Source: a virus
Length of the DNA: 28,047 nucleotides
Strand: one strand, 5' to 3'
IMG/VR virus record: IMGVR_UViG_3300036792_000016
Span: 1-28,047 of that record
The translations under genes and the position numbers were made by a program. How positions within the stretch are numbered: position 1 is the stretch's first letter; each line of letters starts with the position of its first letter. The notes beneath the pieces were generated by a model. The model was not told the origin of the DNA. It saw nothing but the letters and a program-made list of their open reading frames with translations, and made no database searches. This document shows positions 10,344 to 13,075 of the stretch, piece after piece.

Positions 10344-10775
10344 ATGGGCACCATTACAACCGCGAACGCAAGCGTTATCATTTCGATTCCCGACGTGTTC
10401 CCCGTTGACCAGATTCTTTCGGGGTTCGCGGCCGACGACGCCTTTACGCAAGGCGCGTTCGACATGACCGAGACCCGCATGGGTGTTGACGGTATTCTCT
10501 CGGCGGGCTACACGCCGAACGAGAAGCCGTTCACCATCACGTTCCAACCCGACTCGCCCTCGATTCTCGTGTTCGACACGTGGGGTGCGGCGATGGAAGC
10601 GGCAAAAGAGGCGTTGCAAGCCTCGATGGTCATCGCCATGCCGAGCATAGGCAAGGCGTTCAACTTCAACGTTGGTTGGCTGAAGAACTTCAAGAAGCTA
10701 CCCGACGCCAAGAAGGTCGCGGAACCGCAGACCTATTCGATTGCATGGCAGGACATTCAGCCGGTTCCGATCTAA
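10344..10775 (+). CDS. Tail tube protein
   Basis: 143 residues located directly after the sheath, the standard site of the tube gene in contractile tails. It is beta-rich with a central helix (LVFDTWGAAMEAAKEAL), starting SVIISIPDVFPVDQILSGFA and including FDMTETRMGVDGILSAGYTP and KPFTITFQPDSPS. It forms the inner tube through which DNA passes. The tube call depends on size, fold pattern and position. The gene is followed by the second 16-bp palindrome. Confidence 0.75.
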   Translation: MGTITTANASVIISIPDVFPVDQILSGFAADDAFTQGAFDMTETRMGVDGILSAGYTPNEKPFTITFQPDSPSILVFDTWGAAMEAAKEALQASMVIAMPSIGKAFNFNVGWLKNFKKLPDAKKVAEPQTYSIAWQDIQPVPI

Positions 10776-10824: not shown

Positions 10825-11337
10825 ATGAGAAAAACAAAACGGTTGACTATTACCGGCGAGGGCCGCGACAAGGGTAAGACGTTCATTCTTACCGAAATGC
10901 CCGCCGACCAAGGCGAGCGTTGGGCGCTTCGAGCGCTCTTAGCCCTCACCAACACGGGCGCGGCCATTCCCGAGGAAGCGTTAGGCGCGGGCATGGCCGG
11001 GCTTGCAGCCGTGGGCGTCCAAGCCCTCGGCATGCTCGACTCCCTACAGGTACAGCCCTTGCTCGACGAGCTTTGGCCGTCGTGTGTGCGCTACGCGCCG
11101 CCGAATGAAAAGCTCATGCCTCAAGAGATTATGCCGGGGGTGAACTCCCAAATTGAAGAGGTCAAGACCCGCGTCGAGATTTACCGGGAGTTGTTGAACC
11201 TCCACACGGGTTTTTTTATGCCCGCCGAACTCCCGACTTCGGCGTTGCCGGATTCGGCGGGCGGCAAGGTCGGTTGGATTTCCTCAATGTCCCACGCATT
11301 GTTGGGACTCTTGTCGCGAATCGGCTTGCGACACTAG
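10825..11337 (+). CDS. Tail assembly chaperone, unshifted product (lambda G-like role)
   Basis: 170 residues, between tube and tape measure, where tail assembly chaperones lie. The N-terminal part (RLTITGEGRDKGKTFILTEM, then WALRALLALTNTGAAIP) and EVKTRVEIYRELLNLHTGFF are typical of the phage chaperone family. In this phage the ribosome can shift -1 at GGGTTTTTTT (11208-11217); without the shift it reads a further 39 codons to the stop at 11335-11337. It should bind the tape measure during tube assembly and be absent from the virion. Confidence 0.75.
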   Translation: MRKTKRLTITGEGRDKGKTFILTEMPADQGERWALRALLALTNTGAAIPEEALGAGMAGLAAVGVQALGMLDSLQVQPLLDELWPSCVRYAPPNEKLMPQEIMPGVNSQIEEVKTRVEIYRELLNLHTGFFMPAELPTSALPDSAGGKVGWISSMSHALLGLLSRIGLRH

Positions 11338-11435
11338 TAGAGTTGCAAACTATTCTCGGCGTAGAGGATGCCTACAACCTGTTAGAAGTCTTCAGCGTCG
11401 AGAACTACAACCGAGCCAAAACGACTAAGCCGTAA
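10825..11435 (+). CDS. Tail assembly chaperone, -1 frameshift product (lambda GT-like role)
   Basis: Product of a probable -1 programmed frameshift: codons 1-131 are read in the frame of the shorter product up to the T run at 11211-11217, then reading resumes at 11217 and continues 72 codons to TAA at 11433-11435, giving about 203 residues. The new C-terminal part contains LATLVELQTILGVEDAYNLL followed by EVFSVENYN, the helical pattern typical of the second half of chaperones in this phage group. This half has no start codon of its own with a convincing context. Its stop overlaps the tape measure ATG (TAATG). The fusion is inferred; the slippery site, stem and open frame are seen. Confidence 0.7.
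11208..11261 (+). promoter_or_regulatory. -1 ribosomal frameshift signal
   Basis: In-frame codons read ACG GGT TTT TTT ATG, so both G GGT TTT (11208-11214) and T TTT TTT (11211-11217) are slippery heptamers. Downstream, CCCGCCGAA (11221-11229) pairs perfectly with TTCGGCGGG (11253-11261), a 9-bp stem starting 6 bases after GGGTTTT. An alternative 7-bp stem, CGCCGAA (11223-11229) with TTCGGCG (11238-11244), is also possible. Confidence 0.7.
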
Positions 11436-13075
11436 TGCCCGCCACGATAATTGACGCCCTAGTTGTTACCCTCGGCCTCGACGGCGGCCCGTACAAGCGT
11501 GCGGCACGTGAGGCCGCGCGCGAGCAAGCGAAGCTCAAAGATTCAGTAAAGAAAGGCGGCGACGAGGTTAGCTCGGCGCTCGCCGAGGTTGGCCGGCAAG
11601 CCGCGTTGCTGTTCATAGGCTTCGAGGGCATCAAGGGTGCAATCAACTTCTTTGCGGGCATCAACGTCGCGACGGCCGACCTTGGCCGCTTTTCCAAGAA
11701 CCTCGGCGAGTCTGCGCACGAGGTCAACACGTGGGACTCAGCGGTAGAACTCGCGGGCGGCTCGGCGAAAGATGCTCAAGCCGACTTGCAAGGGCTGTCG
11801 AATTCCATCACGGCGTTGAAGGCTACGGGCGATGTGTCGCCGCTGTTGCTATTGTTCCAACGCATGGGTGTGTCGATCTACGACGCCCAAGGCAAGACCC
11901 GTAAGCTAACCGACCTCTACAAAGACCTCGGCGACAAGCTACGACAGTACAACCGCGCCGACGCGTTCAACCTCGCGCGCCAAGCCGGGCTTTCCGAGTC
12001 AACATTCAACCTCATCCGCGCCGAGGGCGACGAGCGCGAGCGGCTGTTGCGGCTTGCCGAACAGAACAACACGGTTACGGACGAGTCAACGCAGAAAGCC
12101 GCCGAGTTGCAAGAGGAATGGCGCGGTATCGGCCAGACTGTGAAGGGCTTCGGGCTCACACTGTTGGGTGACATTACCCCGGCCATCAAAGACTTGTTCG
12201 GTTGGGTACAGCGCATATTTACGGGAGTCAAGAACACCGGATTCTTGCAGGGTGTGTTTACGGTCTTGGCCGGTGCCGTGCGAGTGTTGGTTGACCTCGT
12301 AAGGGTCGCATGGTCGGGGCTGTCGCAACTATTCGACTTGTTGGTGAACTCCAAGGCCGGCAAGTTCCTTGTAGGGCTGTTGGAAAAGCTGAAAGGCTTT
12401 GGCAAAGAGTTCGTTGCGCAAGCCGACCGGTTCGCCGACCAGTACGCGCCCGAGGCGAAGACAGCCGCGCCCGCGCCGGCCGCCGCCTTGACGGCTGCGC
12501 AACGTAAGGCCGCGCGCAACAACCCCGGCGACTTGCGGTTCGCGGGGCAGTCTGGCGCGACCAACGAGGGTGGGTTTGCCTCGTTCAAGACTCTCGCCGA
12601 TGGTATACAGGCGTCGAACCGACAACTCGACTTGTTCGCAAAGCGCGGTATCAACACCATTGACAAGATCATTTCCAAATGGGCACCCCCGAACGAGAAC
12701 AACACGCCCGCGTACAAAGCGGCCTTGTCTAAGTTCATTGGTAAGGGGTTGAATGAGGAACTGACAACCGCCGACCGTCAACGGTTGCTGCAAGGTATCT
12801 TTAACCAAGAGGGGGTGAACAAGGTCTCATCGGCACAGATTGCCGGCGTTGTTCAGAATCCTAACGCGCTTTCGGCGGCACAGTTTGCCAACAGCCAAGC
12901 CGTACCGGGGCAGACTGGCGGGGCCGGGGGCAACACCTCGACGACTACGATTGACATAGGCGAAGTCCACGTGCACGCGCCGAACGCTCGCGACGCTAAC
13001 GACATAGCGGCCGAGCTACCCGGTGCGTTGAAGCGCAAGGGCATCGTCGCGCAAGCTGATTCGGGGATGAGCTAA
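11435..13075 (+). CDS. Tail tape measure protein with muramidase-like domain
   Basis: Sets tail length and passes into the cell during injection. The first 340 residues are mostly helical (KRAAREAAREQAKLKDSVKK; LQEEWRGIGQTVKGFGLTLL) with hydrophobic stretches near 55-75 and 268-300. Residues about 359-460 form a distinct domain, RNNPGDLRF ... GFASFKTLADGIQASNRQLD, then GINTIDKIISKWAPPNENNT, matching the NNPGN-type domain of phage virion muramidase/structural proteins. The C-terminus has the TTTIDIGEVHVHA beta motif usual in tape measures. At 546 residues it is short, implying a short tail (roughly 80 nm by the usual 1.5 angstrom per residue rule). Start fixed by the TAATG overlap. Confidence 0.85.
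   Translation: MPATIIDALVVTLGLDGGPYKRAAREAAREQAKLKDSVKKGGDEVSSALAEVGRQAALLFIGFEGIKGAINFFAGINVATADLGRFSKNLGESAHEVNTWDSAVELAGGSAKDAQADLQGLSNSITALKATGDVSPLLLLFQRMGVSIYDAQGKTRKLTDLYKDLGDKLRQYNRADAFNLARQAGLSESTFNLIRAEGDERERLLRLAEQNNTVTDESTQKAAELQEEWRGIGQTVKGFGLTLLGDITPAIKDLFGWVQRIFTGVKNTGFLQGVFTVLAGAVRVLVDLVRVAWSGLSQLFDLLVNSKAGKFLVGLLEKLKGFGKEFVAQADRFADQYAPEAKTAAPAPAAALTAAQRKAARNNPGDLRFAGQSGATNEGGFASFKTLADGIQASNRQLDLFAKRGINTIDKIISKWAPPNENNTPAYKAALSKFIGKGLNEELTTADRQRLLQGIFNQEGVNKVSSAQIAGVVQNPNALSAAQFANSQAVPGQTGGAGGNTSTTTIDIGEVHVHAPNARDANDIAAELPGALKRKGIVAQADSGMS

Follow-up and report, generated by a model that had tools for sequence, protein, structure and literature searches.

The window analyzed here is the whole 28,047-nucleotide stretch of viral DNA, and its gene order over these 28 kb is of the myovirus type: a major head protein gene, a DUF3383 tail sheath gene, a gene of the E217_Gp32 type, a tail assembly chaperone locus and a tape measure gene. 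The virus is a contractile-tailed phage. The features that concern us all lie on the plus strand. The gene in the tail tube position (10344..10775) belongs to the E217_Gp32 or phrog_1964 family (PF22764, E=8e-20; phrog_1964, E=3.5e-43), and the gene for the tail length tape measure protein occupies 11435..13075 (phrog_2276, E=1.4e-52). The open reading frame of the chaperone (10825..11337, 170 amino acids) sits between these two neighbors, and the role proposed for its product is that of lambda gpG, or TAC-N. Near its 3' end it contains a candidate slippery site (11208..11217), closely followed by a putative stimulatory stem-loop (11220..11262), and a -1 frame extension (11217..11435) that would supply a C-terminal domain like that of gpGT, or TAC-NC.

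The assignment of the 0-frame product rests on a match to phrog_1932, a family of tail assembly chaperones, that covers amino acids 1-135 (E=1.3e-32). This was the only phrog family matched by the core of the protein; phrog_1613 was absent. The conserved core consists of amino acids 1-131, and the homology to chaperones stops at the slip site, after which the 0 frame continues for a tail of 39 codons. An AF2 model of the core (pLDDT 87) matches other viral proteins, one of which is named a tail assembly chaperone (E=1.7e-5). Searching the PDB with the core, by fold and by sequence, turned up nothing meaningful, and neither Pfam nor NCBIfam offered a family for the core or for the extension. 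Some matches to Latrotoxin_C were weak (E=0.03-0.07, below the cut-off) and were dismissed as chance.

In the -1 frame, 72 codons (11217-11432) run without interruption to a TAA (11433-11435) whose last A is also the A of the tape measure ATG at 11435, in the arrangement TAATG. A first-pass annotation of the DNA had described this open frame and its overlap with the tape measure start, and had placed in the same frame a helix of the VEDAYNLLEV type; both observations were borne out. The predicted frameshift product has 203 amino acids in total. Translated alone, the extension shows homology to phrog_3976 (E=6e-17) as well as to phrog_4625 (E=9e-8), and its AF2 model consists of three helices (pLDDT 86.8). 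Matches of this model in a library of viral structures are weak (best E 0.025) and include D4N451 of phage PAK_P1, a protein of 64 amino acids that equals in length the PAK_P1 open reading frame between chaperone and tape measure. When eight close relatives were compared, the differences at -1-frame codon positions 3, 1 and 2 numbered 434, 248 and 131 in the stretch that only the extension uses, and this excess at position 3 argues for selection on the -1 frame. The stretch that is read in both frames shows a weak bias (382, 369 and 263 differences at the same positions), as expected since two frames share its bases. Judged by these sequence comparisons, the predicted -1 product is a real part of a protein and is under selection.

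The sequence at the junction, GGGTTTTTTT (11208-11217), is read in the 0 frame as GGT TTT TTT ATG, so that the slippery run lies in the frame that the first-pass annotation had given it. It holds two overlapping heptamers, G_GGT_TTT (11208-11214) and T_TTT_TTT (11211-11217), and a slip at either one would yield the same protein, with the junction ...H-T-G-F-F-Y-A-R-R.... The run of seven T is the only one on either strand of the window, compared with 3.55 expected in shuffled sequences. A spacer of 5 nt is the usual kind of distance between a slippery heptamer and a stimulatory structure. Since a stem lies 5 nt beyond G_GGT_TTT, this is the likelier working heptamer, with T_TTT_TTT overlapping it.

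Relatives of the locus were drawn from annotated phages and from IMG/VR, giving 54 distinct loci with the window included. Because these loci are related, they should not be counted as independent; 44 clusters were left at the cut-off used. A DNA-level search among phages with the window's locus returned no match. The frames of extension and chaperone core differ by -1 in every one of the 54 loci, and near relatives align across the slip site without an indel. The sequence NNT_TTT occupies one shared codon position in 53 of the 54, a count in which the one failure is the test rather than the successes, because a T_TTT close to where the core match ends was used to locate the loci; the in-frame position of the slip codons was fixed by the core alignment. 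A canonical heptamer is found in 46 of the 54, so that the conservation of the heptamer which the first-pass annotation had proposed to check in relatives does hold. G_GGT_TTT occurs in 28 loci and T_TTT_TTN in 26, with nine of these, the window among them, having both, and one further locus (L035) has C_CCT_TTT. The codons at the site are also far more uniform than elsewhere in the same genes, with phylogeny handled in these enrichment counts by clustering alone: glycine is encoded by GGT at 33 of 33 sites, compared with 16% of upstream glycine codons, and phenylalanine by TTT at 53 of 53, compared with 33% upstream.

The eight loci without a canonical heptamer have T_TTT_TC (five), T_TTT_G (two) or C_CCT_TC (one). 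Sites of this kind that are followed by a clear -1 frame extension include GAC CCT TCC near position 1998 of L063, GCT TTT GTA near 1948 of L012 and L013, and TCT TTT TCG near 1996 of L056. At a guess, such loci may slip on the P-site tRNA alone. One of them, L012 (OM835954.1, Klebsiella phage KP12), is labeled Vequintavirinae and carries a chaperone locus much like those of other Klebsiella records, as does a search hit labeled Lambdavirus (H21, OZ035751.1, PDP110P1); both taxonomy labels look doubtful.

Just downstream of the slippery site, GCCCGCCGAA (11220-11229) can pair with TTCGGCGGGC (11253-11262) to form a perfect outer stem of 10 bp, with an inner helix added in the minimum free energy fold. 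The stem begins 2 nt past the T run and 5 nt past G_GGT_TTT; the first-pass annotation was right that a perfect stem is present here but misjudged its length and spacing, having given 9 bp after 6 bases. The local fold of the window is by itself unexceptional (83 nt, z = -1.23, with 27 of 200 shuffles folding as well), and the single-sequence evidence from the window is accordingly weak. The 50 nt that follow the slip fold better than shuffled sequences across the 44 clusters (mean z -1.51), and six control stretches from the same loci do not (z from -0.14 to -0.32; paired p about 1e-5 against the downstream 50 nt). The close relatives L015, L017 and L020 retain 9-10 bp of the stem, and L018 has one mismatch, a conservation that is in part protein conservation because the 5' arm encodes conserved Arg-Arg codons. 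In distant relatives the pairs of the window's stem are not retained and the RNA is predicted to fold with other partners; the family alignment and RNAalifold revealed no compensatory changes or covariation for one fixed stem. A seven-pair RNAalifold consensus was rejected as a credible stimulator, since four of its pairs use the slip-site GGGT; the window's own stem was not recovered by it. Taken across the family, the comparative sequence evidence lifts the frameshift reading far above chance.

The reading that fits these observations best is a programmed -1 frameshift of the lambda G/GT type that yields a chaperone with a C-terminal extension, and we put the probability of this reading at roughly 0.93 on the evidence of sequence comparison. 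The majority of ribosomes would read 10825-11337 and produce the 170-residue chaperone. A minority would pause at the stem-loop and slip back by one base, either on GGT TTT or on the TTT TTT that comes next, and would then read the -1 frame for 72 codons to produce the 203-residue protein, which would have an additional three-helix domain and end at the tape measure start. By analogy with lambda, the short product would coat the tape measure protein, and the extended one, which is the rarer of the two, would also contact the tail tube protein. We infer the shift itself, its efficiency and the role of the products, the last of these by the lambda analogy. A frameshifted chaperone extension had been the central claim of the first-pass annotation, and it gains from the invariant slip codons, the identical frame relation among relatives and the homology to the Pakpunavirus extension (see below); apart from the stem geometry, its choice of heptamer is what we would revise, in favor of G_GGT_TTT.

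Several phage records annotate the extension as a separate hypothetical protein, and it could in principle be a small gene with a start codon of its own, translated by coupling or re-initiation. Past the slip, the earliest start codon that the window offers in the -1 frame is a TTG at 11274, 19 codons past the TAT at 11217; it has a weak AAGG 4 nt upstream and might begin a version of the extension with 53 amino acids. However, the conserved segment GFFxxRRxPDxG begins right at the slip, ahead of this first start, and members throughout the family preserve it in the -1 frame; in most loci the RRxPDxG part precedes any plausible start codon. Moreover, no ATG, GTG or TTG precedes the conserved helices in L010 and L071, and at the codon equivalent to the TTG the near relatives L015 and L017 have CTG. 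A gene with its own start would also leave the invariant NNT_TTT unexplained, and we consider this explanation quite improbable.

Two further explanations turn on the homopolymer at the junction. One added U from slippage of RNA polymerase on the seven consecutive T, a run that occurs nowhere else in the window, would give the same fusion protein by a transcriptional route. The closest relatives nonetheless have merely five T followed by C (GGGTTTTTC) in the same frame relation, and the enriched downstream structure suits a ribosomal pause better than polymerase slippage, which leaves the transcriptional route with very little to recommend it. A homopolymer is also a place where an error of sequencing or assembly might split a single gene in two, but the same -1 relation recurs in 54 distinct loci from independent sources and alignment of the near relatives reveals no indel at the site, so that we give such an error next to no credence.

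Frameshifted tail chaperones are a textbook feature of phages. The -1 frameshift of lambda G/GT is conserved in long-tailed double-stranded DNA phages; in lambda, the N-terminal part common to both products attaches to the tape measure, and the extension attaches to the tail tube protein (PMC5009743). The phage of the window differs from lambda in being contractile-tailed and in its slippery sequence, and it is likened to lambda by arrangement. A closer parallel comes from a 2025 paper on phage Adele, in which a -1 shift was inferred at an invariant GTTTTT in the TAC-N/TAC-NC chaperones of Vandenendeviridae, a motif that is also present in Andersonviridae (PMC12846349). The profile of the extension built here matches the -1 open reading frame of PAK_P1 (E=1.4e-8), and since PAK_P1 belongs to the genus of Adele, the published Vandenendeviridae extension is homologous to that of the window. 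Pakpunavirus, in that family, thus shares with the window a homologous extension (phrog_4625), GTTTTT within the site, the direction of the shift and the gene order. The N-terminal parts differ, however, with the PAK_P1 chaperone matching phrog_1613 and phrog_3840 and that of the window phrog_1932. In addition, most members of the window's family have canonical heptamers, unlike the GTTTTT of the Vandenendeviridae and Andersonviridae.

Among the phages with the locus, Aeromonas vB_AsaM-56, Obolenskvirus LZ35, Pantoea PA-1 and Acetobacter phiAO1 have the core, extension, frame relation and heptamer as in the window, but they are annotated with two genes or without the extension, in contrast to the reading given here. 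Standard ORF calling splits or drops the frameshift product, much as the first-pass annotation had anticipated. A search of the openly available literature found no paper on frameshifting in the phrog_1932 lineage, which is weak evidence of absence. The locus is almost certainly an instance of a known phage trick in a little-annotated lineage, real but ordinary. It would nevertheless account for phrog_3976, a family with no assigned function, which in this lineage would be the C-terminal portion of a tail chaperone made by frameshifting. The locus also connects this domain with phrog_4625, phrog_4774 and phrog_18181.

The extension does not depend on a frameshift everywhere. All 54 loci have it in the -1 frame, but some distant phages encode it within an ordinary unshifted gene, a qualification to the reading of the first-pass annotation. 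The domain forms the C-terminal part of intact proteins of 170-177 amino acids in Bcep781 (gp47), LBL3 (gp38) and Serratia phage SMP, and its C-terminal position in these uninterrupted proteins suggests that fusion to an N-terminal domain comes naturally to it. In Bcep781 (32215-33134 of L073, minus strand) gp47, a protein of phrog_18181, joins a C terminus like phrog_3976 to a different N-terminal part in one frame, and the adjoining gp46 is a phrog_1932 chaperone free of the extension, so that the pair provides a two-gene alternative to the frameshift. In Pbunavirus LBL3, gp38 (2135-2668 of L074) is a hypothetical protein of phrog_4774 whose C-terminal part is the extension domain and whose N-terminal part is different; its gene comes after the tape measure, not before it.

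These lineages, together with the variety of slip sites, make a useful comparative set for asking how phages fix the proportion of short to extended chaperone. As a tentative generalization, and one that we hold with less than even confidence, the slip element across the family might consist of the codon step NNT_TTT and a stem at a roughly fixed distance, with G_GGT_TTT and T_TTT_TTN, one codon apart, interchanging freely. Some members, with T_TTT_TCN, would slip although full re-pairing is open to the P-site tRNA alone, and the Bcep781 and Pbunavirus lineages would avoid the frameshift by means of the ordinary gene. A separate homopolymer was seen in LBL3, where gp40 (3400-4699 of L074) is annotated as a putative frameshift that arises from a G run varying from 9 to 10 in the population.
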